Assembly: GCF_004348675.1 (NCBI RefSeq) | Contig: NZ_SMKN01000008.1 | Location: 1 to 64,000 of the forward strand | Length of the DNA stretch: 64,000 nucleotides | Direction of reading: 5' to 3' | DNA from: Micromonospora sp. KC606 | Lineage (GTDB): Bacteria > Actinomycetota > Actinomycetes > Mycobacteriales > Micromonosporaceae | Shown here: positions 1,900 through 24,218 of the stretch, piece by piece | Layout of the letters: each line of letters opens with the position of its first letter | Position numbering within the stretch: position 1 is the stretch's first letter | Translations under genes and position numbers: made by a program | The notes under the pieces: generated by a model | What the model saw: the letters and a program-made list of their open reading frames with translations, nothing else | Told to the model about the DNA's origin: nothing | Database searches by the model: none

Positions 1900-2741
1900 G
1901 ACTCCTCCAGCCGTTTCTGCCGCACGTCGGCGTTGAGGGCGCGCAGGGCGGGCTGCCCGTGCAGCCAGTCGGCGAGCTTGGCCAACGGGACACTGACGTC
2001 GCCGAAGTGGTCGGTCACCGCACGCACCAGCGCCCAGTCCCGTTCGGTGTCCAGGGTCAGCCGCAGGTCCGAGCGGTCCGGCGCGAGGGTCACCCCGAGC
2101 ACCCGGAACAGCTCCGGATGGGTGTAGGCGTACGAGGTCACGTGCACCCGGTGGTGATCGGTGGCGAGCCGGTCCAGGGTACGCAGCGCGTCCGCCCGGA
2201 TGATCTCCACGTCCAGCCCGCGGGGGAGCGTACGGGCGATCGACGTGCTGGCGTAGTCCAACCCGGGCACCGCCCGGTAGACCGACGCGACCAGCGCCAC
2301 GATCTCCGGGTCGAGCAGCGGGCAGTCCGCGGTGAACCGCATGACGGCGTCACCGGGGTGGGCGGCCAGGGCCCCGACGAACCGGGCCAGCACGTCGTCG
2401 ACCGGCCCCCGGTGCCAGGGCACGTCCAGTCGGCGGCACTCAGCCACCACCGCGTCGTCGACCGGGTCGGTGCTGGTCGCCACGACCAGGTCGGTCAACA
2501 CGCCGCTGTCCCGGGCGGCCCGCACCACCCGGCCGAGGACGCTGCGCCCGGCCAACGGACGCAGCACCTTGCCGGGCAGCCGGGACGAGCCCATCCTGGC
2601 CTGCACGATCCCCACGATCCGGGTGGTGTTCCCCGGGCCGCGGGTGTCCCGGTCGACCGGTCCCCTGTCACCCGCCGGGCCGACGGTCCCCGGGGCCGTG
2701 CCCGCCGGTCCGGCGGCGACGTTCGGGACGAACTCGTTCAC
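1896..2741 (-). CDS. pseF: SpsF-like CMP-nonulosonic acid cytidylyltransferase
   Basis: A 281-aa nucleotidyltransferase with the signature VQARMGSSRLPGKVL near residue 44. MRFTADCPLLDP carries the metal-binding Asp, and THPE and TLDTERDW lie in the C-terminal half. This is the SpsF branch of cytidylyltransferases rather than a classic PseF. In this operon it most likely activates pseudaminic acid with CTP. The GTG start at 2741 overlaps the preceding gene's TGA (GTGA); an in-frame extension to 2990 would overlap that gene and is rejected. The first 35 or so residues are a Pro/Gly-rich extension ahead of the Rossmann core. Assignment to PseF rests on pathway context. Confidence 0.75.
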   Translation of the reverse strand: MNEFVPNVAAGPAGTAPGTVGPAGDRGPVDRDTRGPGNTTRIVGIVQARMGSSRLPGKVLRPLAGRSVLGRVVRAARDSGVLTDLVVATSTDPVDDAVVAECRRLDVPWHRGPVDDVLARFVGALAAHPGDAVMRFTADCPLLDPEIVALVASVYRAVPGLDYASTSIARTLPRGLDVEIIRADALRTLDRLATDHHRVHVTSYAYTHPELFRVLGVTLAPDRSDLRLTLDTERDWALVRAVTDHFGDVSVPLAKLADWLHGQPALRALNADVRQKRLEES

Positions 2742-4654
2742 TGCTGCTCCTGATCCGGCCGGCGCTGGTTGAGCGCGGCGGTGGCCCGGCGCTTGGCAGC
2801 CCGCGCGCCCCGCTTGGCCAGCCGGGCGGGAGTGATCGCCAACCGGCCCACCCGGTAGCTCAGCGAACCGCTGAGCAGGTTGATGGTCGCGTCGGCGCGG
2901 CGCAGCGCCCGTTCCCGGGAGGTCAGCAGCTCCTCGGTCCACTTCAGCAGCGCCGAGAGTCGGGTCATCTCCTCGCGCTGGCGCAGCCACGCCTCCCGTA
3001 GCTGCTGGTAGCTGCGCGGCCCGGCCGGCGGGTCGGTCGGGGAGACCGCGCGCAGCTCGTCGGCGAGGCGTACCCGCCCCTCGGCGTCGAGACCCCGCAG
3101 CGCGGCGGTTATCGCGGCCTCCGCCTCGACGGCGGCGGCCACGGTCGCCCGGGACAGGTCACGCCCGGCGACGCCACCGAGCACCACGGTCAGCCCGGCA
3201 ACGTCCAGGGTGGACGCCCACGGGTGGGCGTACCCGCCGGTCAGCAGCGCGGCGGCGAAGCGCCACAGAGAGCGGGCCAGCGCCACGTCCAGCTCCAGCG
3301 GCGCGGTGGCCTGCCAGCTCGGGTCGAGGACGGCGAACTCGTCGCCGACCACCACCACGTTGTCCGTCCCGGCGAGGGCGGTGGCGCCGGCCAGCCGGCC
3401 GTCGGCGTCGGCCTGCGCGGCGAGCCAGGTGGCGTACCCGCGCAGCAGGTGGCGCAGGGTGTGCAGGTCGCGGCGCAGGCAGGCGTCGAGCAGCAGGGTA
3501 CGCAGCAGCCGTCCCTCGGGCACCGGCCCGTGCAGGGCGGCCACGTCCCGGTGGGCCACCTCCCGGGAGGCGAAGGGTGCGGCTTCGGACCGGGGCGTCG
3601 CACCGCCGGCCCACCACCGCCAGCCGTCCGCCCCGGCGTGCACCTCGACCACCCCGACGCCCGGCGGCCCGGTCTGCACCAGCGCCACCGGCAGGTCGGC
3701 CCGCCCGCCGGCGACCGTGCCCGAATCCACCGGTCCGCCGGCGACCGCGCCGGACACTGCCGCGCTGTCGGGGCCGGCGTCGGCGGTGACCGCGCCCGGC
3801 TGGGCCGGCGCCCGGTCGTCCGTGGCCACGCCGGCGGGGCGATGGGCGAGCAGCAGCCAGCCCGGGGCGAGCGCCGAGCCGAGCCCGGCGTGCAGCGCGT
3901 CCACGGCCAACCGGGCCGGGTCCTGGAGCACCGTCGCTCCCGGGTCGCCCGCGCAGGCCCCGTGCAGCATCGCGTCGAACAGTCCGGAGGTGGCCCGCCG
4001 GTCCAGCTCGTCGGCGGCGACCAGCACCGTCGGGGCGTCCGGGTCGGGGTACGCGGCGAAGCCGGCCTCCGGTCGCAGTCCGGCGCTCGCCAGCCGGGCC
4101 CGGGCCTGTGCCGGGTTGGCGGGCCGGCCGGCGTCCAGCACCCCGCCGACGGACCAGGCCCGGTCGGAGCGGTCGACGTACCAGGGGGAGACGGCGACCA
4201 GTCGGTGCACGCCGAGCGGGTTGTCCACCCGCAGCAGCAGCGTCCCGCCGGGGGCCACCGCCGTGACCAGCCGGGCCAGCACGCCGTCCCAGCCCAGCCG
4301 GTGACCCTCCACCGACTCCACGGCGTCCAGTCCGGCGGCGGCGACCACCACGTCCCACTGTTCGTCGTCGGGCAGGCCGGCCGGTCCGCCGACCACCACC
4401 CGGGCGCCCCGGTCGGCCAGCACCACCCCGTCGGGGTGGCTCCGCAGCAGGCAGGTCACCGCCGCGTGGGCCAGCCGGGCCAACAGGGCGGGGTCGTGCG
4501 GCCCGGCGAGCAGCACCCGGGCGCCGGCGGGCACGAGCCGGGCCAGCAGCGCCGCCAACGGGCCGCCCTCGGCCAGCCGGCGTTCCGGCAGGTCCGACCA
4601 GGCCAGCATCTCCCCGCCCGGCAGGGCGACCCGGGGCGCGGTCTCAGTCGTCAA
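2738..4654 (-). CDS. Methyltransferase-like protein with C-terminal coiled coil
   Basis: A 638-aa protein. Residues about 45-215 read as a Rossmann SAM-dependent methyltransferase-like domain (ARVLLAGPHDPALLARL, QWDVVVAAAGLDAVES, VAPGGTLLLRVDNPLG). The glycine-rich motif I is atypical, so catalysis is uncertain. Residues 350-530 form a second globular part I cannot assign. Residues 545-600 look like coiled coil, followed by a very basic Arg/Lys/Ala-rich tail. The TTG start at 4654 is supported by AGGAGG six bases upstream and overlaps the previous gene by 11 bases. Its place between pseC and pseF suggests a role in modifying or assembling the Pse glycan. Confidence 0.6.
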   Translation of the reverse strand: MTTETAPRVALPGGEMLAWSDLPERRLAEGGPLAALLARLVPAGARVLLAGPHDPALLARLAHAAVTCLLRSHPDGVVLADRGARVVVGGPAGLPDDEQWDVVVAAAGLDAVESVEGHRLGWDGVLARLVTAVAPGGTLLLRVDNPLGVHRLVAVSPWYVDRSDRAWSVGGVLDAGRPANPAQARARLASAGLRPEAGFAAYPDPDAPTVLVAADELDRRATSGLFDAMLHGACAGDPGATVLQDPARLAVDALHAGLGSALAPGWLLLAHRPAGVATDDRAPAQPGAVTADAGPDSAAVSGAVAGGPVDSGTVAGGRADLPVALVQTGPPGVGVVEVHAGADGWRWWAGGATPRSEAAPFASREVAHRDVAALHGPVPEGRLLRTLLLDACLRRDLHTLRHLLRGYATWLAAQADADGRLAGATALAGTDNVVVVGDEFAVLDPSWQATAPLELDVALARSLWRFAAALLTGGYAHPWASTLDVAGLTVVLGGVAGRDLSRATVAAAVEAEAAITAALRGLDAEGRVRLADELRAVSPTDPPAGPRSYQQLREAWLRQREEMTRLSALLKWTEELLTSRERALRRADATINLLSGSLSYRVGRLAITPARLAKRGARAAKRRATAALNQRRPDQEQQ

Positions 4655-5486
4655 CGTCGTCCTCCTGGAGGTTCGCCCACCCGAGCAGCTCGCGCAGCTC
4701 GGCCGGCGTACAGCGGTGGTCGGTGCCCAGTTCGGCGCGGGCGATCTCCACGGCGGTGGTCTGGTCGACCGACTCGCCGTGCAGCTCCGGCCACTGGCGG
4801 CGGATGCGTGCGGTGCCGCCGAAGGTGGGGTCCTCGTCGGACAGGATCATCGGGTCGCCGTAGACGGCGGGCTCGCAGCCGGCGGCGATGCCGTAGAAGA
4901 TCGCGCTGGTGAGCCGGTTGGAGGCGACCCGCCGGTGCCGGCGCAGCTCGGAGAGCTGCTTGTCGAGGAAGAACGGGTCGGTGTCCTTCCACCAGTGACC
5001 CCGGTAGCCGTGGCAGATCACCCGGAAGCCGGCGTTCTCGTAGAGCCGGCGCACCCGGCGCATGCCGTACTCGTGCCAGTAGAGGCAGATTGTCACCGGC
5101 CCCGGCTCGGTGGCCTGGATCCGGGCGATCAACTCCTTGTGGTCGCCCTTGACGTGCTGGCCCTCCCAGCCGTGGAACGGGTACCAGATGGTGCCCTCCC
5201 GGTGCGGCTCCGGGGGGTCGTCGCGGCGCAGGTCCAGCAGGTACGCGAAGGGCGCGCCGATGGTGACGACGTTGCGTCGCCCCACCGACCAGGCCCGCCG
5301 GCGGGTCTGGTCGGACCAGAGCAGGCTCGGGGTGCGTTCGGCGTACGGGTGGCCGGGGGCGAGCCCGTCGCCGATGTTCCAGCCGTGCTGGACGTACCCG
5401 TTGATCCGGGGTGGGTGCCCGTCGCCCAGCCCGCAGTAGCGCGCCAGCACATGGGCGTGCCCGTAGAAGTGGTTCGCGTGGTGCAT
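4644..5486 (-). CDS. Unassigned surface-glycan protein, possible GT-B glycosyltransferase
   Basis: A 280-aa protein without a domain I can name firmly. NGYVQHGWNIGDG, NVVTIGAPFAYLL and VASNRLTSAIFYGIAAGCEPAVYGDPM resemble the two Rossmann halves of GT-B surface-polysaccharide enzymes: the last stretch is like the donor-binding loop followed by a helix and strand. No signal peptide or membrane span is visible. It lies 10 bases after pseC and overlaps the methyltransferase-like gene, inside the CMP-Pse operon, so transfer of the nonulosonic acid is a reasonable inference. It could instead be a structural or regulatory glycan protein. ATG start with GGGG upstream. Confidence 0.55.
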   Translation of the reverse strand: MHHANHFYGHAHVLARYCGLGDGHPPRINGYVQHGWNIGDGLAPGHPYAERTPSLLWSDQTRRRAWSVGRRNVVTIGAPFAYLLDLRRDDPPEPHREGTIWYPFHGWEGQHVKGDHKELIARIQATEPGPVTICLYWHEYGMRRVRRLYENAGFRVICHGYRGHWWKDTDPFFLDKQLSELRRHRRVASNRLTSAIFYGIAAGCEPAVYGDPMILSDEDPTFGGTARIRRQWPELHGESVDQTTAVEIARAELGTDHRCTPAELRELLGWANLQEDDVDD

Positions 5487-5496
5487 CGGTACCCCG

Positions 5497-6651
5497 TCAG
5501 GCGGCGGGACGCACGGGTACGCCGCGCAGGGCGGCGCGGAACGCGTCGATCACGCGGTCCTGGTCGGCGTCGGTGAGGGTCGGGAAGAGCGGCAGGGACA
5601 GCTGCTGTTGGTAGAACGACTCGGCCACCGGGCAGGATCCGCGCCGGTAGCCCAGATCGGCGAAGGCCGGGTGCCAGTGCGCCGGAACGTAGTTCACCTG
5701 CACCCCGATGCCGGCGGCGCGCATCCGGTCGTACACCTCGCGGCGGCGGCCGTCGAGCACTCGGACAGGGTAGAGGTGCCAGGCCGGGGCTGCCCAGGAG
5801 CGCCGGCCGGGGATCCGCACGCTGTCGAGGTCCGCGAGGGCCTCGTCGTACCGGGCGACCAGCCGGGCCCGGGCGGCGAGGAAGTCGCCGAGCCGGCGGA
5901 GCTGGCTGCGGCCCAGCGCGCACAGCACGTCGGGCAGCCGGTAGTTCAACCCGAAGGCGTGTACCTCCTGGTGCCAGCCGCCCTCGTCCGGCCAGCGCAG
6001 CTCGTCGCGGTCCCGGACCAGCCCGATGTTGCGGAACCGGCGGGCCCGCTTCAGCAACTCCGGGTCGCCCGCGGCGACCGCGCCGCCCTCGGCGGTGGTG
6101 AGGTTCTTGGTGGGGAAGAACGAGAAGGTGGTGAGGTCGGCCAGCGAGCCGACCGGCCGGCCCCGGTAGGCGCCGCCGATGGAGTGCGCGGCGTCGGCGA
6201 GCAGCAGCGCGCCGCTGCCGGCCAGCGCGGCGCGCAGGGCGTCGTAGTCGGCCGGGTGGCCGGCGTAGTCGACCGCGGACACCACCTTCGTGCGGGAGGT
6301 GGTGGCCGCCGCGGCCGCCGCCGGGTCGAGGGTGAAGGTCTCCTCCTCCACGTCGGCGAAGACCACCGTCGCGCCGAGGGCGACCGCGCTGCTCGCGGTC
6401 GCCACGAACGTCATCGGGGGGACGACCACCTCGTCGCCGGGGCCGACGCCGGCCGCCGCGTACGCGACGTGCAGCGCGGCGGTGCCGTTGGACACCGCCG
6501 CGCAGCCGGTCCCGCCCGTCCACCGGGCCAGGTCGGTCTCGAACGCCGCGACCTGCGGGCCGGTGGTGAGCCAGTCGCTGCGCAGCACGGCGACCACGGC
6601 GGCGACGTCGTCGTCGGTGACCGACTGCCGGCCGTACGGGAGCATCGCCAT
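5497..6651 (-). CDS. pseC: PseC-like UDP-sugar aminotransferase (PLP)
   Basis: A 384-aa DegT/DnrJ/EryC1-family transaminase, expected to aminate C4 of the 4-keto sugar made by PseB using PLP and glutamate. The cofactor features are AVSNGTAAL (phosphate-binding), LLADAAHSIG (the Asp that contacts the pyridine nitrogen) and the Schiff-base lysine K182 in SFFPTKNLTTAEGG. The C-terminal half has the family's LNYRLPDVLCALG and VQVNYVPAHWHP. The start is ATG at 6651, overlapping the pseB stop as TGATG; a longer reading to 6750 would run into pseB. Assignment as PseC rather than another sugar transaminase follows from the pseB partner. Confidence 0.88.
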   Translation of the reverse strand: MAMLPYGRQSVTDDDVAAVVAVLRSDWLTTGPQVAAFETDLARWTGGTGCAAVSNGTAALHVAYAAAGVGPGDEVVVPPMTFVATASSAVALGATVVFADVEEETFTLDPAAAAAATTSRTKVVSAVDYAGHPADYDALRAALAGSGALLLADAAHSIGGAYRGRPVGSLADLTTFSFFPTKNLTTAEGGAVAAGDPELLKRARRFRNIGLVRDRDELRWPDEGGWHQEVHAFGLNYRLPDVLCALGRSQLRRLGDFLAARARLVARYDEALADLDSVRIPGRRSWAAPAWHLYPVRVLDGRRREVYDRMRAAGIGVQVNYVPAHWHPAFADLGYRRGSCPVAESFYQQQLSLPLFPTLTDADQDRVIDAFRAALRGVPVRPAA

Positions 6652-7634
6652 CACGCGGTGATGCCGAGCATGTCGCGCAGCTGCTCCACGCTCAGCCACT
6701 CGTCGTTGGTGTCCGACTGGTACGCGAACCCGTCCGGCACCGGCTCGCAACCCACCGGCGGCTGGTAGCCCCAGGTGGCGATGGTGGGCTGGACGATGAA
6801 CCGGTCTGCCGCCCGCAGCGTCCGGCGGCTGTCGTCCGGGGCGATCATTTCCTCGTGCAGCTTCTCGCCGGGGCGGATGCCGATCTCGTGGGTGGTCGCG
6901 TCCGGGGCCACCGCCTCGACCAGATCGAGGATCCGCATGCTGGGGATGCGCGGCACGAAAAGCTCGCCGCCCTGCATCTGGTCGAAGGAGTCGATGACGA
7001 ACTGGACGGCCTGGTCCAGGGTGATCCAGAACCGGGTCATCCGCTTGTCGGTGATAGGCAGGCTTTTGCCCTCGGCGGCGAGCCGGCGGAACAGCGGGAC
7101 CACGGAGCCGCGGCTGCCCACCACGTTGCCGTAGCGCACCACGGCGAAGCGGGTGGGGTGCTGTGCGGCGTAGTGGTTGGCGGAGACGAACAGCTTGTCG
7201 CCGACCAGCTTGGTGGCGCCGTACAGGTTGATCGGGCTGGACGCCTTGTCGGTGGAGAGGGCGATGACCTTCTTCACCCCGGCCTCGATCGCCGCGTCCA
7301 CCACGTGCTGGGAGCCGGCGATGTTGGTGGCGATGAACTCCGACGGGTTGTACTCGGCCGTGTCGACCTGCTTCAGCGCGGCGGCGTGCACCACGTGGTC
7401 CACGCCGTGCATGGCGCGCGTCAGCCGGTGCCGGTCGCGGATGTCGCCGATGAACCAGCGCAACCGCGGGTCGTCGCCCAACTGCTGGCGCAGTTCGTAC
7501 TGCTTCAGTTCGTCGCGGGAGAACACCACCACCCGGGCCGGGTCGGCCTCGGCGAGGAGATGCCGGAGGAAGGTCTTCCCGAAGGAACCGGTGCCGCCGG
7601 TGACCAGGATGGAGGATCCCGTCAGCTCACTCAA
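6651..7634 (-). CDS. pseB: PseB-like UDP-GlcNAc 4,6-dehydratase (5-inverting)
   Basis: A 327-aa extended short-chain dehydrogenase. It has the NAD-binding VTGGTGSFGKTF (residues 11-22) and the PseB-type active site ALSTDKASSPINLYGATK, with D129, K130, Y138 and K142. This is the inverting soluble dehydratase type, without the membrane domain of PglF. It catalyses the first step of pseudaminic acid synthesis from UDP-GlcNAc. The start appears to be TTG at 7634, seven bases after GGGAG, and no in-frame ATG precedes it. First gene of a seven-gene minus-strand operon running to alkB. Confidence 0.92.
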   Translation of the reverse strand: MSELTGSSILVTGGTGSFGKTFLRHLLAEADPARVVVFSRDELKQYELRQQLGDDPRLRWFIGDIRDRHRLTRAMHGVDHVVHAAALKQVDTAEYNPSEFIATNIAGSQHVVDAAIEAGVKKVIALSTDKASSPINLYGATKLVGDKLFVSANHYAAQHPTRFAVVRYGNVVGSRGSVVPLFRRLAAEGKSLPITDKRMTRFWITLDQAVQFVIDSFDQMQGGELFVPRIPSMRILDLVEAVAPDATTHEIGIRPGEKLHEEMIAPDDSRRTLRAADRFIVQPTIATWGYQPPVGCEPVPDGFAYQSDTNDEWLSVEQLRDMLGITA

Positions 7635-9982: not shown

Positions 9983-10492
9983 TCAGCGGCGGCGGCGATT
10001 TTCCCGGGTCAGGGAAATCGGGATCACCTCGATTTCCCGCCCGTCGTGCATCTGCCGTACCGGGCTTCCCTCGACGAACCGGAACCGGCGGTTCATCTGG
10101 CGTACGACGGTGTTGTGCGCCAGCACCTCCCCGTCGAGCCGATCCAGCGCCAACGCGTCGAACGCGTGGTCCACCGCCTCGCGCATCACCTCCAGCCAGG
10201 CAGGCAGCGTCTCCCCCCGGTCGGCCAGCCCGTCGGCGTCCAGGTAGAAGCCCCAAGCCCCGGTACGCGGGCCGTCCAGGCGCAGGTCGAAGAAGGTCAC
10301 CACGCCGCAGGGCAGGCCGTCGCGCTCGTACACCAGCACCCGCCTGCTGGGGTCGCCGCATACCCGGGACCACCACGCCGCGTGCTCCACGGCGGAGATC
10401 ACATGGCTGGTCTTGCTGACCTGCCGGTTGGCGTCCTGATTACGCCAGGACAACATCAGGTGAACGTCGTCCCCGGTCGCGTCGCGCAGCAC
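9983..10492 (-). CDS. pseH: PseH-like GNAT N-acetyl/acyltransferase
   Basis: A 169-aa GNAT-fold protein. It opens with LRDATGDDVHLMLSWRN, typical of RimJ/PseH-like enzymes. The core is GVVTFFDL followed by the helix region VMREAVDHAFDALALDRLDGEVLAHNTVVRQMNRRFRFVEG (given here as its span, residues about 105-140), with the family's asparagine-centred contact between N-x-V and N-x-x-F. PseH transfers an acyl group from CoA to the C4 amine of the PseC product, the step missing from the main operon. It is divergent from the acyl carrier protein gene across 90 bases with a palindrome, so joint control is likely. Its acyl donor might be the adjacent ACP rather than acetyl-CoA (inference). GTG or CTG-type start; the 10492 start is provisional. 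Confidence 0.7.
   Translation of the reverse strand: MLRDATGDDVHLMLSWRNQDANRQVSKTSHVISAVEHAAWWSRVCGDPSRRVLVYERDGLPCGVVTFFDLRLDGPRTGAWGFYLDADGLADRGETLPAWLEVMREAVDHAFDALALDRLDGEVLAHNTVVRQMNRRFRFVEGSPVRQMHDGREIEVIPISLTRENRRRR
9996..10038. repeat. Overlapping hairpins at the 3' end of pseH
   Basis: Two alternative inverted repeats share an arm: CGATTTTCCC with GGGAAATCG (9996-10020), and GGGAAATCG with CGATTTCCC (10012-10038, perfect 9-base arms). They lie inside the last codons of pseH, between convergent genes, and could end transcription from 8182. Confidence 0.4.
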
Positions 10493-10537
10493 TGTGACCT
10501 CTTTCCGTTCGATTCCGTGTCAGGTCCGGAAACCCTA

Positions 10538-10566
10538 CCCGGGAAATGTCGCCGACATTTTCCGGG
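10538..10566. promoter_or_regulatory. Palindrome in the pseH/ACP divergent promoter region
   Basis: A 29-base near-perfect palindrome, with half-sites CCCGGGAAATGTCG and CGACATTTTCCGGG, lies 17 bases before the ACP start and 46 bases before the pseH start. TACACT (10570-10575), a possible -10 box, follows directly. Size and position suit an operator for a dimeric regulator acting on both directions; a hairpin leader is the alternative. Confidence 0.5.
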
Positions 10567-10582
10567 CGCTACACTCCGCCGC

Positions 10583-10834
10583 ATGAACGAACTGAGCCGC
10601 GCACACATCCGCGACCTCATGTCGCAGGTGCTGGCGAACCAGGGCCGGGTGTTGCCGGACGACGACGCCGCCGACCTGCGGGAAATCGGCTTCCGGTCGC
10701 TGGACTTCTCCGAGCTGGCCCTGCGGGTCGAGGACGCCACGGGGGAGGAGCTCAACTTCGACGCCCCCGGACTGCGCCGCATCGCCACGGTCGGGGACGT
10801 CCTCGACTTCCTCGAGACCCTCCAACGCCAGTGA
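10583..10834 (+). CDS. Acyl carrier protein
   Basis: An 83-aa acidic helical protein of ACP type. The phosphopantetheine serine is S39 in IGFRSLDF, the equivalent of the usual DSLD motif, followed by the acidic helix ELALRVEDATGEEL. It would carry an acyl group as a thioester. The ATG lies 7 bases after TACACT with no clear ribosome-binding site, so translation may be leaderless. It is coupled to the ligase gene by a GTGA overlap. Too small and diverged to be the fatty-acid-synthase ACP; it looks dedicated to this cluster. It needs activation by a phosphopantetheinyl transferase, and a candidate lies two genes downstream. Confidence 0.85.
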   Translation: MNELSRAHIRDLMSQVLANQGRVLPDDDAADLREIGFRSLDFSELALRVEDATGEELNFDAPGLRRIATVGDVLDFLETLQRQ

Positions 10835-12063
10835 TCGTCGGCACCCGCGCCGGCCTGGACAACCGGATCGTCGTCGGTGGCAGCGTGTCGACCTGGCGCG
10901 AGCTGCCCGAGCCGGCGCTGCCGTCACCGGCCGCCGTGCTCACCGCCCGCCCGGCCGACGCGCTGGCCGCCGCCCGGCACCACGCGGCGTACGGCACCGA
11001 GCTGCTGCTCACCTCCGCCGCCCGGGTGGACCAGGCGATGCGCGACGAGCTTCGGGAGGCCGGCTTCACCGTGACCGGGCCGGGGTCCGGCGGCGGGCAC
11101 ACCGAGCCGCCGGTCCGGCCGCGTCCCGCCGAACCGGGCAGGCTCTGGCTGCTCACCTCCGGCTCGACCGGGCGACCCAAGCGGGTCGGGCACACCCTGG
11201 ACTCGTTGACCACCGTCCGCGGCGTCCAGCCGGCACGCACCTGGCTCTGCCCGTACGCTCCTGGCACGTACGCCTGGTGGCAGGTGGTGACCCTGTCGCT
11301 GACCCAGCCGGGGCAGCACCTGGTGGTGGTGGACGGCGACGAGCTGGACGAGTGGCCGGCGCTCGCCGCCGCGCACGGGGTGGACGCGGCCTCCGGCACC
11401 CCGACGTTCTGGCGGCGCACCCTGCACCGTGACGGAGCGGCGTTGGCCCGGGTGCCGCTGCGCCAGCTCACCCTCGGCGGCGAACCGGTCGACCAGGCCG
11501 TGCTGGACCAGCTTCGGGAGGTCTTCCCGGCCGCCCGCATCTCATGGATCTACGCCTCCTCCGAGGTCGGGGCGTCGATCGTGGTCCACGACGGCCGCGC
11601 CGGCTTCCCGGTCGAGTGGCTGGACCGCCGGCTGCCCGGTCGGCCGACCCTCTCGGTCGACGGCGAGGAGCTGGTGATCACCTCCCCGCACCACGGCGCC
11701 GGGCTCGACGGCCCGGTGCGCACCGGCGATCGGGTGCAGGTCGTCGACGGCCGGGTGCTGATCACCGGCCGGCTGGACTCCGACGAGATCAACGTGGGCG
11801 GGAGCAAGGTCTCCGCCGGACTGGTCCGGGGCGTGCTCGCCGCACACCCGCGGGTCGCCTGGGCGCGGGTCACCGGCCGCCGTGCGCCGCTGCTCGGTCG
11901 GATGGTTGTCGCCGAGGTGGTCCCGACCGCGCCGGACGACCCACCGGACGAGGCCGAGCTGGTCCGCTGGTGCGCCGGCCGGCTCCCCGACCACGCGGTG
12001 CCCCGCCGTATCCGCCTGCTGCCCGAGATCCCCGTCAAGGAGACGTTGAAGAGCGATGTCTGA
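10831..12063 (+). CDS. AMP-dependent acyl ligase (loads the ACP)
   Basis: A 410-aa ANL-superfamily adenylating enzyme. The ATP loop is TSGSTGRPK (residues 109-117). IYASSEVG, TGDRVQV and ITGRLDSDEINVGGSKV correspond to the later core motifs, and a lysine in VKETLKSDV at the extreme C-terminus is the expected catalytic lysine. It is shorter than the usual 500 aa or so because the N-terminal subdomain is trimmed. The GTG start overlaps the ACP stop (GTGA), implying matched amounts, so it probably adenylates a small carboxylic acid and loads it on the ACP. The substrate cannot be read from the sequence. Confidence 0.8.
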   Translation: MIVGTRAGLDNRIVVGGSVSTWRELPEPALPSPAAVLTARPADALAAARHHAAYGTELLLTSAARVDQAMRDELREAGFTVTGPGSGGGHTEPPVRPRPAEPGRLWLLTSGSTGRPKRVGHTLDSLTTVRGVQPARTWLCPYAPGTYAWWQVVTLSLTQPGQHLVVVDGDELDEWPALAAAHGVDAASGTPTFWRRTLHRDGAALARVPLRQLTLGGEPVDQAVLDQLREVFPAARISWIYASSEVGASIVVHDGRAGFPVEWLDRRLPGRPTLSVDGEELVITSPHHGAGLDGPVRTGDRVQVVDGRVLITGRLDSDEINVGGSKVSAGLVRGVLAAHPRVAWARVTGRRAPLLGRMVVAEVVPTAPDDPPDEAELVRWCAGRLPDHAVPRRIRLLPEIPVKETLKSDV

Positions 12064-12802
12064 CACCCCGCTCGTCCCACCCAGTTCCGTGGTCCTGGTT
12101 TCCGGCGGTTCCCGCGGGCTGGGGCTGGCCATCGTCACCGACCTGCTCGATGCCGGGATGAAGGTGGCCGCGTTCGCCCGTACCGTCACTCCCGAGCTGG
12201 CGAAGCTGGCCGACGCGTACCCGGACCGGGCGCACGTCGGCGCGGTCGACGTCACCGACCCGCCCGCCGTGCAGGCTTTCCTTCGGGCGGCGGAGGAGCG
12301 GCTCGGCCCCGTGGACGGGCTGGTCAACAACGCCGCGGTCGGCCAGGACTCGATGCACACGCACACCTCCAACGCCGACATCGCCCGGATCGTCGAGACG
12401 AACCTGACCGCCCCGCTGCAACTCACCCGCCTGGTCGTCCGCCGGATGCTCGGTGGCGGCCGGCGCGGGCGGATCGTCAACATCACCTCGATCTGCGCGC
12501 AGCGCGGCTTCCCGGGCCTGGTGGCGTACTCGGCCACCAAGGGCGGCATGGACGCCGCGACCCGCTCGCTGGCTCGGGAGCTGGGCGGCCGGATGCTGGT
12601 CAACGCGGTCGCGCCGGGGTTCTTCGCCTCGGAGATGTCCGCCGTGCTGGGCAGCACCCAGCTCGACCAGATCGTCCGCCGTACCCCGACGGGGCACCTC
12701 ACCGAGCCGGACGAGGTCGTGCCGGTGGTGCGGATGTTGCTGCGCGAGCACACCAACATCAACGGCCAGGTGCTCGTGGTGGACGGTGCGGCCTCCGTCT
12801 GA
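12056..12802 (+). CDS. SDR-family ketoreductase (FabG-like)
   Basis: A 248-aa classical short-chain dehydrogenase. It has VSGGSRGLG (nucleotide loop, residues 15-23), VNNAAVG (about 90-96), S145 in NITSIC, Y158 and K162 in AYSATKGG, and the C-terminal NGQVLVVDGAASV typical of FabG relatives. It would reduce or form a beta-hydroxyacyl thioester, plausibly on the neighbouring ACP, with NADPH. It overlaps the ligase gene by 8 bases. In this setting a 3-hydroxyacyl group for sugar N-acylation is a reasonable guess; a sugar substrate is the alternative. Confidence 0.82.
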   Translation: MSDTPLVPPSSVVLVSGGSRGLGLAIVTDLLDAGMKVAAFARTVTPELAKLADAYPDRAHVGAVDVTDPPAVQAFLRAAEERLGPVDGLVNNAAVGQDSMHTHTSNADIARIVETNLTAPLQLTRLVVRRMLGGGRRGRIVNITSICAQRGFPGLVAYSATKGGMDAATRSLARELGGRMLVNAVAPGFFASEMSAVLGSTQLDQIVRRTPTGHLTEPDEVVPVVRMLLREHTNINGQVLVVDGAASV

Positions 12803-12809
12803 GCTGGGC

Positions 12810-13283
12810 GTGGGACCGGCCGGGCGGGAGAGCGGCCGGCCGCTCACCGTGGGCAGGGCCGGCACGCGTCCGGTGCCGGCCCTGCTGGCCGCCGCCGAAC
12901 GGCACCTGCGGGTCGGCACGCCGGCCGAGTTGGCGTACGCGGTGACCCGCAGCCACCTCGACGACGGACGCTGCGTCGGCTGGTACGGCCCACCGGCACC
13001 GGGTTGGCGGGTGGCGATCGACGCCGAACGGGCCGATGCCGAGGTGCCGCCCGCGTTGGCCCGACGGTTCGGGCAGATCGACTTCTGGGCTCGCTGGACC
13101 CGGGCGGAGAGCCTGTGCAAGCTGGCGGAGGTGCCGGTGGCCGCCTGGTGGCGGCGGCACGGGCTGGTGGTACCTCCGCAGACGCCGGCGGTGTGGCGGA
13201 CCCTGCGCGTGGCCGATCAGCCCGGCGTGCGCGGCGATGTCGGCGCGCGAGACCTGATCGTCACGGTGGCCTTCGCGCCCTGA
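12810..13283 (+). CDS. Small 4'-phosphopantetheinyl transferase-like protein
   Basis: About 157 aa. AIDAER (residues 69-74) resembles the metal-binding G-[VI]-D-x-E motif of Sfp-type PPTases. RWTRAESLCK (95-104) resembles their second motif, W-x-x-K-E-A-x-x-K, with A99-E100 and K104. That is a match to the key acids, but the N-terminal half of a normal PPTase (about 220 aa) is missing, so it is short and divergent. Two other GTG codons, 12786 (overlapping the SDR gene) and 12849, could be the start. Its position right after ACP, ligase and SDR genes supports a role in activating that ACP. Function inferred, not proven. Confidence 0.55.
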   Translation: MGPAGRESGRPLTVGRAGTRPVPALLAAAERHLRVGTPAELAYAVTRSHLDDGRCVGWYGPPAPGWRVAIDAERADAEVPPALARRFGQIDFWARWTRAESLCKLAEVPVAAWWRRHGLVVPPQTPAVWRTLRVADQPGVRGDVGARDLIVTVAFAP

Positions 13284-13447: not shown

Positions 13448-14500
13448 TCAGATCAGGTCCCAGCTCAGCGGGGTGCCCCGGGGAACGTCGACGGCGAAGG
13501 CACGGCCGAGCACGGCGTCGATCGCTGCCGGGGGCAGCCCGCCGGCCGGGCGGATCGAGCGGACGTTCCGCGCGGTCACCGGGTCGCCGGCGCGGACGTC
13601 CTCGACGACCCAGAGGGACCGGCGGAAGCGCAGCCCCTCCTGCTCGGCCGGGGTCGGGCCGACCAGCGTCCCGCCGAGCGCCGCGTACGCCCGCGCCGAC
13701 TCGACGACCAGGGCGGCCAGCTCGGCCGGGTTCAGCGAGAAGTCCGAGTCCACCCCGCCGTCGGACCGGTCCAGCGTCACGTGCTTCTCGATGAAGCAGG
13801 CGCCCAGCGCCACCGAGGCGACCGGCACTCCGATGCCGGGGGTGTGGTCGGACAGGCCCACCGGCACCCCGAACAGATCGGCGAGCACCGGGATGCGACG
13901 CAGGTTGCTGTCGCCCGGCGGCGCCGGGTAGGAGGCGGTGCAGGCCAGCAGGACGATGCCGCCCGCGCCCGCCTCCCGCGCGGTGCGCACCGCGGCGTCG
14001 ATCTCGGCGACCGTCGCCATCCCGGTGGAGATCACCAGCGGCTTGCCGGTGCCGGCCACCAGCCGGATCAGCGGCAGGTCGACCAGCTCGGACGAAGCGA
14101 TCTTGTACGCCGGCGCGTCCAGTTCCTCCAGCAGCTCCACCGCGGTCGGGTCGAACGGCGAGGAGAAGACGGTCAACCCGCGCTCTCGGGCCCGGGCGAA
14201 GATCGGCGCGTGCCACTCGTACGGTGTGTGGGCCTTCTCGTAGAGCCGGTACAGGTTCTCGCCGCCCCACAGCTCGTGCCCGCCCGAGATTCGGAAGGCG
14301 GGGGAGTCGACGTCGATGGTGATCGTGTCCGGCCGGTACGTCTGCAGCTTCAGCGCGTGCGCGCCGCTGGCCGCTACGGCGTCCACGATGGCCAGGGCCC
14401 GGTCCAGGTCTCCGTTGTGGTTGCCGGACATCTCGGCGACCACGAACGGTCGTTCCCCGGCCCCCACCACGTGCGGTCCGATCTTCACTGTCGCCGTCAT
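13448..14500 (-). CDS. pseI: Pseudaminic acid synthase (NeuB/PseI family)
   Basis: A 350-aa NeuB-type synthase that condenses phosphoenolpyruvate with the 6-carbon amino sugar to give the 9-carbon nonulosonic acid. FVVAEMSGNHNGDLDRAL marks the TIM-barrel start. Further signs are ALKLQTYRPDT, FSSPFDPTAVELL, YKIASSEL, ISTGMAT, SDHTPG and EKHVTLDRSDGGVDSDFSL, the last being the metal and substrate region. The C-terminal 60 residues form an SAF (antifreeze-like) domain. ATG at 14500 follows AGGGG; longer readings are repeats and shadow. The YRPDTIT and elongated HELWGGENLY region look PseI-like rather than NeuB-like. Probably co-transcribed after the GT2 gene upstream. Confidence 0.9.
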   Translation of the reverse strand: MTATVKIGPHVVGAGERPFVVAEMSGNHNGDLDRALAIVDAVAASGAHALKLQTYRPDTITIDVDSPAFRISGGHELWGGENLYRLYEKAHTPYEWHAPIFARARERGLTVFSSPFDPTAVELLEELDAPAYKIASSELVDLPLIRLVAGTGKPLVISTGMATVAEIDAAVRTAREAGAGGIVLLACTASYPAPPGDSNLRRIPVLADLFGVPVGLSDHTPGIGVPVASVALGACFIEKHVTLDRSDGGVDSDFSLNPAELAALVVESARAYAALGGTLVGPTPAEQEGLRFRRSLWVVEDVRAGDPVTARNVRSIRPAGGLPPAAIDAVLGRAFAVDVPRGTPLSWDLI

Positions 14501-16526: not shown

Positions 16527-17783
16527 GTGGTGTCGATCCGTGTCGATGCGGGGAGGTCCGCCACGAGCACGTCGTCGGCGAGCCGGCTGCCCTCGCTGAC
16601 CGGGCTGCGCTGGGTGGCCGCGATGTTGGTCTTCGGCTACCACGCCGGCACCATGCGGATCGTCGGCGACCCCGATGCCAAGACCGTCGTCGACGTGATC
16701 TTCACCCTCGGCCTGTCCGGGGTGCAGTTCTTCTTCATCCTCAGTGGCTTCGTGTTGGTGTGGTCGGCCCGCGACGGCGAGCGGCGCCGCGACTTCTGGC
16801 GGCGGCGACTGGCCAAGATCTACCCGAACCACCTGCTGACCTGGGCGGCGGCGCTGGCGGTGATGTGGTGGTTCGCCGACCCGGTGGTGCCCCGCGCGGC
16901 CCTGGAGAACCTGCTCCTGGTCCAGGCATGGGACCCCACCCCGGGCTACTTCTACAGCATCAACACGGTGAGCTGGTCGCTCTCCTGCGAGCTCTTCTTC
17001 TACCTCTGCCTGCCGCTGGTGCTACCGGCGTTACGCCGCGCCCGCGCCGGCCTGCTCTGGGCGGTGGTGGTGGCGGTGCCGCTGATGATCGTGTCGCTCT
17101 GGCCTGGTCAGCTCCTGGTGCCCGAGGAGAGCACCTGGTGGTTCACGCAGATCTTCCCGCTGGTCCGCTCGACCGAGTTCTGGCTGGGAGTGGTTGCGGC
17201 CGAGTTGATGCGCCGTGGCCGGTGGCGCGGTCCACGGCTTCCCCTGGCCAGCCTGATCTTCGTGGCCACCTGGGTGGTGGCGGGCCTGTGGATCCGCGCC
17301 GAGCTGTGGGCGGCGATCCTCTCTGTGGCGTACCTGTTGGTGATCACCGCGGCGGCGGACGCGGACGTACGCGGACGGCGCTCGCCGTGGCGGCATCACC
17401 GACTGGTGTGGCTCGGTGAGGTCTCCTTCGCCTTCTACCTGGTGCACGTGCTGGTGATGGTCACCGTTCTGCGGGCCACCGGTTACCTCGGGATCGGGTT
17501 GCCGGGCTGGTGGGGGCCGCTGGTGGTGCTCGGCTTCCTGGCGGTGAACCTGTTGCTCGCCGCCGCGCTGCACCGCTGGGTGGAGATCCCGGCGATGCGC
17601 CGCCTGGCCCCTCGCCGCCGTCCGCCCGTGGGCGCGGCGGCCCCGGGCGGCGCGCCGGTGTCGGCTGGCACGCCTGCTCCCTCCGTGGCTGGTGATCGAC
17701 TGGCGCCGGGCGATGCCGCCGTGCCGGTCGCCCGCCGGGCCGCCGCCACCCCGTCGCGATCCAACGCCGGCCACCCTGGCTGA
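16527..17783 (+). CDS. OafA/YrhL-type membrane acyltransferase (family 3)
   Basis: 418 aa with about ten membrane spans. PSLTGLRWVAAMLVFGYHAG gives the family-typical R and H near the first span; FFFILSGFVLVW and WSLSCELFFYL are the other two signature motifs; AFYLVHVLVM comes near the end. Such proteins O-acylate surface polysaccharides with acyl groups taken from the cytoplasm. The GTG start follows GAGGAGGGG. The last 60 residues are a Pro/Ala-rich cytoplasmic tail. One TTA leucine codon (17031) occurs in frame, rare in such GC-rich genes. Its neighbours suggest O-acylation of a wall or capsule glycan. Confidence 0.87.
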   Translation: MVSIRVDAGRSATSTSSASRLPSLTGLRWVAAMLVFGYHAGTMRIVGDPDAKTVVDVIFTLGLSGVQFFFILSGFVLVWSARDGERRRDFWRRRLAKIYPNHLLTWAAALAVMWWFADPVVPRAALENLLLVQAWDPTPGYFYSINTVSWSLSCELFFYLCLPLVLPALRRARAGLLWAVVVAVPLMIVSLWPGQLLVPEESTWWFTQIFPLVRSTEFWLGVVAAELMRRGRWRGPRLPLASLIFVATWVVAGLWIRAELWAAILSVAYLLVITAAADADVRGRRSPWRHHRLVWLGEVSFAFYLVHVLVMVTVLRATGYLGIGLPGWWGPLVVLGFLAVNLLLAAALHRWVEIPAMRRLAPRRRPPVGAAAPGGAPVSAGTPAPSVAGDRLAPGDAAVPVARRAAATPSRSNAGHPG

Positions 17784-22712: not shown

Positions 22713-24218
22713 TCAGCCGGCGTTGGCGAGCCGGTCGGTGTCGGCGGCGGTCGGCTGGGCCGGCACCGCGGCCGGCTCACCCGGCGCCCGGCGGACGTCG
22801 ATCACCTGGCCGGTGAGGTCGGAGATCAGCACGTCCAGCGACGACCGGGCCACCGTCTCCGCGGCGAGCAGGGTGTGCTCGGGCTCCTCGCCGAACGCCT
22901 TGGTGCGCATCGGGGTGGCGGTGCGCTCCGGGTTGATGCAGTTGACCCGTACGCCGAACTCGGCCCACTCGTCGGACAGCGCCTGGGTGAGGTTGACCAG
23001 GGCGGCCTTGGTGGCGGAGTAGAGGGCGTACTGGGCCCGGCCGCGGGTGTAGGAGCTGGAGGTGTAGAGCAGCAGTTGGCCCTTGGTCTGCTGGAGGTAC
23101 GGCAGGGACTGTCGGGCCACGATGACCGGCCCGACGAAGTTGACCTGGAGCACCCGGTCCATCGTCTCCTCGTCCAGGTCGGCCAGGGCGCCCTTCTCCA
23201 GGATGCCGGCGGTGACCACCACGTGGTCGATCCGGCCGGTGGCCTCGAAGGCGGTCTTCAGCGCGGCCGTCACGTCCTCGGCCCGCTCGACGTGGGTGCC
23301 GGTGCTGGAGCGGCTGAACGGGAAGACCTGGGCGCCGTACTGGCGGGCCAGCTCGGCCAGGTCGTGGCCGATGCCGTAGCTGCCGCCGAAGACGACGACC
23401 GTCCGGCCGGTCAGCTCCTCGGTGTAGCTGCGGTGGTCGGTCAGGCGGGGGGCCTGGGCGGCGGCGAGCTGGAAGAGCTTGTCGGCCAGGTGCACGTCGA
23501 CCGGGTGGGTGACCTTGATGTTCTCGTCCGAGCCGTCGATCACCTTGATCGGCGTGCCGGGCAGGTAGCGCAGCACCACGCCGCAGTCGTCGGTGGCCGC
23601 GAAGTGCGGGTCGCCCTCGGCCCGCCGGTACGCCTCGCGGATCGTCCCGGAGCGGAACGCCTGCGGGGTCTGGCCGCGACGCAGGGTGGCGCGGACCGGA
23701 ATGTCGGTGATGCAGTCGTTCTCGTCGACCTGGATGATCGTGTCGGCCGACGGGATCGCCACGTCGACGGCGGAGTACGTCCAGAGCGCGTTGACGCACT
23801 CGCGGACGATCCGGGCGCTGACCAGCGGCCGGACGGCGTCGTGGAAGAGGATGTTGACGTCGCCCTCGCCCACCGCGTCCAACGCGATCCGGGTGGTGGC
23901 GTTGCGGGTGTCGCCGCCCTCGGTCACCTTGCTGACCTTGCGGAAGCCGGCCCTGTCGACGATTTGCTGGGCCTGCTCCACGTGGCCGGTGGCCATCAGC
24001 ACGATGATCTCGTCGATCTCCGGCGCGGCGTCGAAGACGGCCAGGGTGTGCTCGATGATCGGCTTACCGGCGATCTTCAGCAGCTGCTTGGGGATGCCCA
24101 GGCCGAGCCGGATCCCGGTGCCGCCGGCCAGCACCACCGCCACCGTCCGCGAGGGCCGCCACGGCGCCGGGGTCTCCGGTGTGGCGTCCGGGCGGTCAGT
24201 GGTGTGGTCCTGCGTCAT
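22713..24218 (-). CDS. Fused cytidylyltransferase/SDR reductase (CDP-ribitol synthase type)
   Basis: 501 aa with two domains. Residues 25-255 are an IspD/TarI-type cytidylyltransferase: VVLAGGTGIRLG, PKQLLKIAGKPIIEHTL, FHDAVRPLV and GQTPQAFR. Residues 270-475 are an SDR: VVFGGSYGIG, VTAGILEKG, S-x12-Y-x3-K as YTSSSYTRGRAQYALYSATK. The same order occurs in Haemophilus Bcs1, which reduces ribulose-5-phosphate and makes CDP-ribitol. In the Gram-positive route these are two genes, tarI and tarJ. ATG with GAGGA upstream. It leads directly into a glycerophosphotransferase-type gene, giving a supply-and-polymerise pair. Confidence 0.85.
   Translation of the reverse strand: MTQDHTTDRPDATPETPAPWRPSRTVAVVLAGGTGIRLGLGIPKQLLKIAGKPIIEHTLAVFDAAPEIDEIIVLMATGHVEQAQQIVDRAGFRKVSKVTEGGDTRNATTRIALDAVGEGDVNILFHDAVRPLVSARIVRECVNALWTYSAVDVAIPSADTIIQVDENDCITDIPVRATLRRGQTPQAFRSGTIREAYRRAEGDPHFAATDDCGVVLRYLPGTPIKVIDGSDENIKVTHPVDVHLADKLFQLAAAQAPRLTDHRSYTEELTGRTVVVFGGSYGIGHDLAELARQYGAQVFPFSRSSTGTHVERAEDVTAALKTAFEATGRIDHVVVTAGILEKGALADLDEETMDRVLQVNFVGPVIVARQSLPYLQQTKGQLLLYTSSSYTRGRAQYALYSATKAALVNLTQALSDEWAEFGVRVNCINPERTATPMRTKAFGEEPEHTLLAAETVARSSLDVLISDLTGQVIDVRRAPGEPAAVPAQPTAADTDRLANAG

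Follow-up and report, generated by a model that had tools for sequence, protein, structure and literature searches.

A carrier-protein gene set inherited with pseH in a Micromonospora pseudaminic acid locus may supply an acyl group other than acetyl

Bacteria differ widely in the N-acyl groups of their nonulosonic acids, and we know of no described route to many of these groups. A pseudaminic acid (Pse) locus in Micromonospora sp. KC606 raises the question of whether such a group is made by genes of its own. The window analyzed here is a stretch of 64,000 nucleotides (contig NZ_SMKN01000008.1 of assembly GCF_004348675.1, positions 1 to 64,000, forward strand). Sequence reading and family scans revealed that, inside this locus, pseH opposes a co-directional operon of acyl carrier protein (ACP), ligase, SDR, and PPTase-like genes.

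On the reverse strand, pseH (positions 9983 to 10492) encodes a GNAT N-acyltransferase of a module-linked type with Asn at position 134 (TIGR03585; E value of 4.7e-18, 65.7 bits). The forward-strand genes encode a free-standing ACP with Ser39 (10583 to 10834), a stand-alone AMP-forming acid ligase of 410 amino acids (10831 to 12063; PF00501 and PF13193, both above cutoff), a FabG-like SDR (12056 to 12802; PF00106/PF13561), and a divergent predicted member of the PPTase superfamily, which spans 12786 or 12810 (GTG start) to 13283. The ligase start lies inside a GTGA overlap with the ACP stop, and the SDR start shares 8 bases with the ligase end; these coordinates and overlaps bear out the preliminary description, which had reported a compact set divergent from pseH. 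The surrounding reverse-strand genes are pseI for pseudaminic acid synthase (13448 to 14500; TIGR03586, 453 bits, cutoff of 340), pseB (6651 to 7634; TIGR03589, 494 bits, cutoff of 408), pseC (5497 to 6699; TIGR03588, 398 bits, slightly under the cutoff of 423.5), a pseF-like cytidylyltransferase gene (1896 to 2741; TIGR03584, E value of 2.8e-7, under cutoff and outscored by KdsB-type models), and a pseG-like hydrolase gene (823 to 1836; TIGR03590, E value of 2.2e-32, under cutoff).

Within the divergent intergenic region (10493 to 10582), a TACACT element stands 7 bp before the ACP ATG and appears compatible with a leaderless start. Of 80 named Actinomycetota loci (the best 80 of 153 confirmed, some being the same strains as sampled family genomes), 58 have TAnnnT 7 to 8 bp 5' of the ACP start, versus 47 of 40,000 random positions. 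Three Kribbella loci inspected by eye have an insertion separating pseH from the ACP gene; it appears to consist of glycoside hydrolase, membrane protein, and unrelated genes, with no acyl genes recognized in it.

The residues expected of an acyl-loading and reducing set are conserved. The ACP belongs to PF00550 (21.6 bits against a cutoff of 20.8) and has a modifiable serine: Ser39, singled out in the preliminary description, sits in GFRSLDF, and G36 to D41 did not vary across the 81 sequences compared. The ligase carries a TSG(S/T)TGR motif and a C-terminal K407 in all 81, which, together with PF00501/PF13193, places it in the ANL superfamily. Its top PDB profile match was the malonyl-CoA ligase 3nyq (E value of 2e-16), and carrier-protein-loading ligases were also among the matches. 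Rossmann glycines and an N-S-Y-K tetrad (N116, Y158, and K162 in 81/81; S145 in 80/81) identify the third protein as a FabG-type SDR. Its top PDB match was MupS (4yxf; E value of 2.3e-50), followed by 3-oxoacyl-ACP reductases; because its score for the top NCBIfam match, a 3-oxoacyl-ACP reductase equivalog, was under that model's cutoff, FabG itself is not claimed.

The last protein of the operon matched no family in profile scans, PF01648 included; that model matched 6 of 29 alignment members (best E value of 7e-4). The D-x-E and E-xxx-K residues D79, E81, E108, and K112 were kept in every aligned letter (66/66, with gaps in the other 2 of 68 rows). For its AF2 model (pLDDT of 89), Foldseek was weak taken alone (best E value of 0.08), and VIA-align ranks 1 to 34 were all PPTases or PPTase-containing entries (Z of 5.0 to 6.8; following row, 4.4), Sfp 4mrt aligning with a Z of 6.8 and an rmsd of 3.0 over 110 residues. 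On the basis of its relatives, modeled fold, and catalytic residues, we place the protein in the PPTase superfamily, in agreement with its earlier PPTase-like assignment. The gene was not found in 13 of the 80 named loci (best 80 of 153), and two further PF01648 proteins are encoded in the KC606 genome; the set thus does not depend on this gene.

We consider it probable that this module makes a (hydroxy)acyl-ACP and that PseH transfers the acyl group to the 4-amino sugar, replacing acetyl. Phosphopantetheine would be attached to Ser39 of the ACP by the PPTase-like protein or by another PPTase encoded in the genome. The ligase would use ATP to activate a small carboxylic acid, which it would load onto the ACP arm. 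The SDR would then reduce a keto group to give a hydroxyacyl-ACP; in the simplest case, acetoacetyl would become 3-hydroxybutyryl. Finally, the adjacent PseH would pass this acyl group to the 4-amino group of UDP-4-amino-4,6-dideoxy-L-AltNAc, the predicted product, destined for a wall polymer, being Pse5Ac7-(hydroxy)acyl.

The module is tightly linked to Pse genes. Among 250 sampled genomes of the family, the ligase (E value of ≤1e-25) occurred in 37, all within the 105 that were PseI positive (E value of ≤1e-60), and this confinement led us to reject chance neighborhood (Fisher p of 1.4e-16, a guide only since the genomes are related). pseH stands beside the ACP gene in all 37, and pseH, ACP, ligase, and SDR genes occur together in all 36 genomes besides that of KC606 (29/29 loci plus the remaining 7). 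Across the named loci (best 80 of 153), ACP, ligase, and SDR genes were co-directional in 80/80; pseH was present in 77, always divergent and with a gap of <400 bp in 64; and at least one of pseI, pseB, and pseC lay within the fetched stretch in 76, in many genera. The preliminary description took sets lying mainly away from pse genes as evidence against it; these counts reject that distribution, and the set does stand next to pse genes in other genomes.

A second module takes its place elsewhere in the family. LuxE, our proxy for this module B in whole-genome counts, was found in all 68 family genomes that have PseI but not the ligase (in 64, no more than 30 kb from pseI) and in 1 of 38 genomes with the ligase module (module A). 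Module B consists of ACP-SDR-ligase-LuxE-LuxC; all five genes were present in ten genomes fetched whole (G028, G039, G056, G080, G138, G179, G213, G221, G235, and G247), and other genomes showed partial sets where the fetched stretch ended. LuxE was not found in the KC606 genome, and neither LuxE nor LuxC had a match in the larger module loci L040 to L043, L045 to L055, and L099 to L178. Modules A and B are near-completely mutually exclusive. Outside the genus, 14 of 80 family genomes negative for PseI also had LuxE; module B is therefore not confined to Pse.

PseH itself differs between the two modules. The AF2 model of the window's PseH (pLDDT of 95.7) has a PseH-like GNAT fold: Foldseek ranked H. 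pylori PseH (4ri1) first, and VIA-align gave a Z of 21.6 and an rmsd of 2.2 over 160 residues (SpeG rows tie). Its sequence does not reach the TIGR03585 equivalog cutoff (65.7 versus 93.1 bits). The nearest solved proteins by sequence and fold are PseH enzymes that use acetyl-CoA (4xpk, E value of 3.8e-11, ahead of FdhC; 4ri1). The H. pylori enzyme uses acetyl-CoA, and its Tyr138 is proposed as the general acid, binding the thioester carbonyl (excerpts of PMC4363471). Position 134 of the window's PseH aligns with Tyr138 and holds Asn, as it does in 78/78 module-linked PseH proteins (named set, best 80 of 153, plus the window); R131, kept in 76/78, and N134 flank the thioester site. In actinobacterial PseH-like proteins whose loci lack this module, position 134 is His in 22/22, a contrast of module A with module B and not of module with none, since LuxE is present in all 68 ligase-free PseI-positive genomes. 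These 22 came from 29 PseI loci (7 without a pseH match; one is an additional PseI locus in G061, whose module lies elsewhere), which, with G061 set aside, cover 25 of the 68 PseI-positive genomes lacking module A; the 42 module-linked rows in that comparison represent 37 genomes, 5 of which contribute two rows each, L028 and L036 to L039 having been dropped as cut or duplicate. A profile of nine module-linked PseH sequences found FdhC, a 3-hydroxybutanoyl transferase, at an E value of 4e-5, and a profile of nine of the 22 comparison sequences (one short at its N terminus) did not find it at 0.01. Asn134 alone indicates neither the acyl type nor ACP use, because FdhC carries His there and His-type PseH also adjoins a carrier-protein module.

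G93 and N127 are invariant and align with the CoA-binding Gly103 and Asn131 of H. pylori PseH (excerpts of PMC4363471 and our alignment). Because PseH retains these CoA-compatible residues, an acyl-CoA could be the final donor: the special acyl group would be built on the ACP and then moved to CoA, or PseH would take an acyl-CoA directly, with the ACP serving activation and reduction only. The fold closest to acetyl-CoA-bound H. pylori PseH agrees with this, as does FdhC, which works with CoA according to the title of 5ktc. However, family scans recognized no ACP:CoA acyltransferase among the four module genes, and the module-specific R131 and N134 surround the thioester site; we regard a CoA donor as unlikely.

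Trees of 37 loci (15 with the module) whose PseI and PseH had at least 300 and 130 residues, respectively, revealed three changes of module state for PseI and one for PseH. A single clade of module loci was rejected for PseI (AU p of 0.0004) and present for PseH (support of 99.8); the genus as one clade was rejected for PseH. PseH and the module are one heritable, exchangeable cassette. As module-linked PseH forms a single clade, its characteristic residues represent one evolutionary event and not many. In six congeners, PseI and PseB are 83 to 95% alike, and PseH, which adjoins pseI without this module, is only 44 to 54% alike. Joint inheritance fits a special acyl group, and travel as one unit suggests a wall sugar other than the plain acetylated form.

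The same trees bear on the improbable alternative that the module's acyl group goes to a different position or a different wall sugar (e.g., by O-acylation), PseH being an ordinary acetyltransferase and a mere neighbor. Relatives of the open reading frame at 16527 to 17783, membrane acyltransferase-like by eye, lie nearby in many loci, but PseH is coinherited with the module in conflict with the PseI tree, a relative of that gene is also present in 4 of 6 congener loci lacking module A (L064, L066, L068, and L069), and none had a match in the Dermacoccus locus L099. Distant ACP-ligase-SDR triads in two Paracoccaceae plasmids adjoin hexapeptide-transferase genes instead, which would suit acylation elsewhere; we also count them in favor of an acyl-donor role. 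A secondary-metabolite pathway lying in the Pse locus by happenstance is strongly disfavored: one congener (L044) has a distant ligase/SDR pair (37 to 39%) with an ACP-like open reading frame in a region that is NRPS-like by eye, but pseI, pseB, or pseC accompanies the set in 76/80 named loci (best 80 of 153) of many genera, and the ligase (E value of ≤1e-25) was never found without PseI in the 250 family genomes.

Extending the preferred reading, in which PseH transfers the module's acyl product, we tentatively suggest that one of two interchangeable modules, ACP-ligase-SDR-PPTase with Asn-type PseH or ACP-SDR-ligase-LuxE-LuxC with His-type PseH, may set two wall-Pse N-acyl chemotypes in Pse-making Micromonosporaceae, Asn-type PseH possibly being acyl-ACP dependent. 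Such an enzyme would represent a donor class that the literature searched does not report for PseH. Open-licence PMC searches returned no actinobacterial PseH-ACP-ligase-SDR-PPTase set in titles or abstract openings, and no actinobacterial wall Pse structure was found in the open-licence literature; Kribbella or Micromonospora polymer structures in subscription journals may already reveal which acyl group is present. The coinherited gene set makes the acid, the donor, and the prediction of wall-sugar chemistry from module type directly testable in Micromonospora, Kribbella, Nocardioides, Dermacoccus, and relatives.

Parts of this arrangement recur in known systems. In the Dlt system, the stand-alone ligase DltA and the carrier DltC feed cell wall acylation, D-alanyl esters being made outside the cell by DltB/DltD with neither SDR nor GNAT; the window's cassette shares the ligase and carrier protein and differs in having an SDR and a GNAT. 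The tetronate set of V. cholerae O1 likewise includes an ACP and a ligase. According to excerpts of PMC3441752, this dedicated set (VC0248 to VC0252) produces a hydroxy acid with which the 4-amino group of a deoxy-sugar is acylated, and loss of wbeL alters the O antigen; it acts on perosamine and the window's set on Pse, the two being likened by description only. Two Azospirillum plasmid loci have the same ACP-ligase-SDR order (ligase, 36 to 41% identical; SDR, 44 to 45%) with pseI nearby. Unlike the window, they contain a second carrier protein, a hydrolase, and KAS III (ketoacyl-ACP synthase III), have a flagellin rather than a wall-polymer context, and lack a PseH directly beside the ACP, although in L180 a GNAT 22% like pseH lies ~7 kb upstream. 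FdhC (5kta/5ktc) is, like the window's PseH, a GNAT sugar N-acyltransferase and is matched by the module-linked profile, but it acts with CoA on a 3-amino sugar and has His in place of Asn134. The fold and reaction class are also those of PseH from H. pylori and C. jejuni; where the H. pylori enzyme has the proposed general acid Tyr138 (excerpts of PMC4363471), the window's protein, under the equivalog cutoff, has Asn.

The preliminary description knew of no Pse pathway with its own carrier protein, a statement unsupported in that form, since gene-level precedents exist in Aeromonas and enterobacteria. In the excerpts of PMC7874193, Aeromonas flagellin islands carry ACP, 3-oxoacyl-ACP reductase, and AMP-synthetase genes plus luxE and luxC downstream of pseH; enterobacterial flagellin islands carry similar gene sets (excerpts of PMC4875605), and both sources read them as fatty acid genes for a possible "liposugar" component. 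Aeromonas Group II resembles the window in having ACP, SDR, and AMP-ligase genes that adjoin pseH in a Pse locus. Compared by description only, it differs in its LuxE and LuxC, its ACP-SDR-ligase order, and a PPTase unmentioned in those excerpts (PMC7874193). Its composition is that of actinobacterial module B and not of the window's module, a likeness by gene content only. For the ACP genes of the Aeromonas and enterobacterial islands, our analysis offers an alternative reading, i.e., that they may serve sugar N-acylation and not a lipid part.

The pseH gene (positions 9983 to 10492, minus strand) lies between pseB/pseC and pseI and faces four plus-strand genes, hereafter module A, that encode an ACP (10583 to 10834), an AMP-forming acid ligase (10831 to 12063), an SDR (12056 to 12802), and, last, a PPTase-like protein (from a GTG codon at 12786 or 12810 to 13283). 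GTGA is common to the ACP stop and the ligase start, and the SDR gene begins before the ligase gene has ended. The preliminary description of these features, including Ser39 of the ACP, was right. The genome comprises 6.66 Mb in 429 contigs, and the ligase is 92 to 93% identical to those of two Micromonospora loci (L119 and L126), the nearest named loci by region. A TAnnnT element (10570 to 10575) suggests a leaderless promoter: of the 80 named loci (L099 to L178), 58 have one 7 to 8 bp ahead of the ACP initiation codon, against a background of 47 in 40,000 random positions. Elsewhere in the window, proteins of 638 and 280 aa (2738 to 4654 and 4644 to 5486), without Pfam matches, have relatives that recur in pse loci across Actinomycetota, at times in multiple copies. 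A single ORF at 22713 to 24218 resembles, by eye, a TarI/TarJ-like cytidylyltransferase fused to an SDR; with a nearby ORF resembling, also by eye, an ABC transporter ATPase, it suggests a ribitol-phosphate wall polymer beside the Pse genes.

Module A is tightly linked to Pse genes. In the sample of 250 Micromonosporaceae genomes (cutoffs, E ≤ 1e-25 for the ligase and ≤ 1e-60 for PseI), the ligase occurred in 37 and PseI in 105, and all 37 ligase genomes were PseI positive. pseH, ACP, ligase, and SDR genes were found together in all 36 ligase genomes besides the window's own (29 of 29, then the other 7); the PPTase was not found in three of those seven loci (L041 to L043). Among 396 genomes sampled across the phylum, three had the ligase, one of them from another family (Dermacoccus abyssi, G555), with the ligase beside pseH and pseI. 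A scan of named genomes gave 153 confirmed relatives. The best 80 of these, which were read, are all Actinomycetota by their titles (genera include Micromonospora, Kribbella, Nocardioides, Dermacoccus, Flexivirga, Knoellia, Terrabacter, and Hamadaea), and ACP, ligase, and SDR genes are co-directional in every one. pseH was present in 77 and always divergent, and 64 of these loci have a gap of <400 bp; 3 to 6.6 kb separate pseH and the ACP gene in 13 loci (12 Kribbella and one Propionibacteriaceae). pseH was not matched in two Kribbella contigs ending 2.6 kb upstream of the ACP gene and one MAG (L104). At least one of pseI, pseB, and pseC was found in 76 of the 80; three of the other four come from short or truncated contigs (L112, L173, and L175), and the fourth, from Actinophytocola (L159), has pseH and none of the three genes within 21 kb. 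Seven PseI loci (L072, L074, L076, L077, L082, L084, and L092) gave no pseH-like match within the fetched stretch; in four of the genomes (G039, G061, G080, and G228), another PseI locus does have pseH.

PseH and module A are inherited together. Six congeners (L064 to L069, rows that do not represent six independent swaps) carry the same Pse cluster (PseI, 83 to 87%; PseB, 90 to 95%) without module A, and their pseH differs, being 44 to 54% identical and co-directional with pseI. In trees of 37 loci (15 with the module and 22 without; some rows are long branches), three changes of module state were needed for PseI versus one for PseH. A single clade of module loci was rejected for PseI (AU P = 0.0004) and supported for PseH (99.8), for which a single clade of the genus was rejected. 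PseH thus moves with the module, not with PseI.

The fourth protein gave no Pfam or NCBIfam match in the window, and PF01648 matched 6 of 29 alignment members, the window included (best E value, 7e-4). D79, E81, E108, and K112 are invariant in the alignment (66 of 66 letters, with gaps in 2 of the 68 rows). With an AF2 model (pLDDT, 89), Foldseek gave weak matches, the best being PptT (E = 0.08). In VIA-align, rows 1 to 34 were PPTases or PPTase-containing entries (Z, 5.0 to 6.8; following row, 4.4), with Sfp (4mrt) aligned at Z = 6.8 and an rmsd of 3.0 over 110 residues. We take the protein to be a divergent PPTase. It is an accessory component, since it was absent by search from 13 of the 80 named loci and the genome encodes two further PF01648 proteins.

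Several loci without module A's ligase carry ACP, SDR, AMP ligase, LuxE, and LuxC genes (module B; Pfam LuxE and LuxC) between pseI and pseB or nearby (L065, 4762 to 9394; L067, L071, L073, L080, and L091), and L185 to L188 likewise carry this module in or near actinobacterial pse loci. With LuxE (PF04443, E ≤ 1e-10, whole genomes) as a proxy for module B, all five genes of which were seen in ten genomes, the two modules exclude each other almost completely: LuxE occurred in all 68 PseI-positive family genomes that lack the ligase (6 of 6 and 62 of 62), of which 64 have it within 30 kb of pseI, and in 1 of 38 with the ligase (37 plus the window's own). That exception, G219, is only 26 to 33% like module B, and its fetched 19.5-kb region gave no pse match. 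LuxE was found in 0 of 17 PseI-negative genomes of the genus and 14 of 80 in the rest of the family, which means that module B also occurs apart from Pse. Four congeners have it 22 to 27 kb from pseI, flanked by other pseC (37 to 39%) and pseB (25 to 26%) matches, where it might serve a second amino sugar.

In Helicobacter pylori PseH, Tyr138 binds the thioester carbonyl and is proposed as a general acid (PMC4363471). The aligned residue, Asn134 in the window, is Asn in 78 of 78 module-linked PseH sequences (named set plus window). All 42 rows of the first such set (37 genomes) likewise have Asn, and all 22 sequences from loci without module A have His. This difference is not merely one between loci with and without an ACP, since a carrier protein comes with module B as well. 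At position 131, 76 of the 78 have Arg, and PseH from loci without module A has Leu, Ile, or Val. The best solved match of module-linked PseH was Campylobacter jejuni PseH (3.8e-11). The module-linked profile also matched FdhC, the enzyme that forms a 3-hydroxybutanoyl amide (E = 6.8e-6 when built from 37 sequences and 4.1e-5 from 9), and a 9-sequence profile of the other PseH type did not match FdhC at 0.01. This similarity hints at a 3-hydroxyacyl group and is no proof of one, since FdhC has His at the Asn134 position and uses CoA.

The sequences establish the genes and their order, the conservation of catalytic residues, the inheritance of PseH together with module A, and the almost complete exclusion of module B. 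Beyond this, we propose that the ACP would be converted to holo-ACP and loaded with a small acid, whose keto group would be reduced by the SDR (closest to MupS and 3-oxoacyl-ACP reductases). PseH would transfer the acyl to the 4-amino group, making it the N-7 group of Pse. The simplest chemistry would convert acetoacetate to 3-hydroxybutyrate, an identity that is possible but rather doubtful. The main rival would have acyl-CoA, the substrate type of FdhC, as the last donor.

ACP-ligase-SDR triads recur with different kinds of acyltransferase, the pattern expected if the triad supplies an acyl donor. In annotated regions of two Azospirillum plasmids (L179, 8501 to 16873; L180, 8572 to 16964), pseI is followed by a glycosyltransferase, two carrier proteins (one annotated as hypothetical in L180), a hydrolase, ligase (36 to 41%), and SDR (44 to 45%), upstream of ketoacyl-ACP synthase III and flagellin. 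On two Paracoccaceae plasmids (L181, 10265 to 13737; L182, 10961 to 13696), the triad follows a hexapeptide-repeat transferase; sugar genes lie nearby in L181. A distant ACP-ligase-SDR run in one congener (L044, 8385 to 10557; ligase, 37%; SDR, 39%) sits in what appears by eye to be an NRPS-type cluster.

The open-licence literature listings searched yielded no account of an actinobacterial cassette coupled to PseH, of its PPTase, or of a split into two modules. Carrier-protein gene sets near pse genes have been described, with a proposed function (PMC7874193 and PMC4875605). Aeromonas group II flagellin islands share the composition of module B, and Aeromonas piscicola AH-3, whose island has the ACP set, makes a 376.14-Da Pse derivative with an unknown 102-Da moiety (PMC7874193). 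These reported masses fit Pse5Ac7 plus dihydroxybutyryl (calculated, 376.148, a mass shared by the combination of glycolyl and 3-hydroxybutyryl) and a dihydroxybutyryl residue (calculated, 102.032), which would suit a module B that makes a tetronate-like acid.
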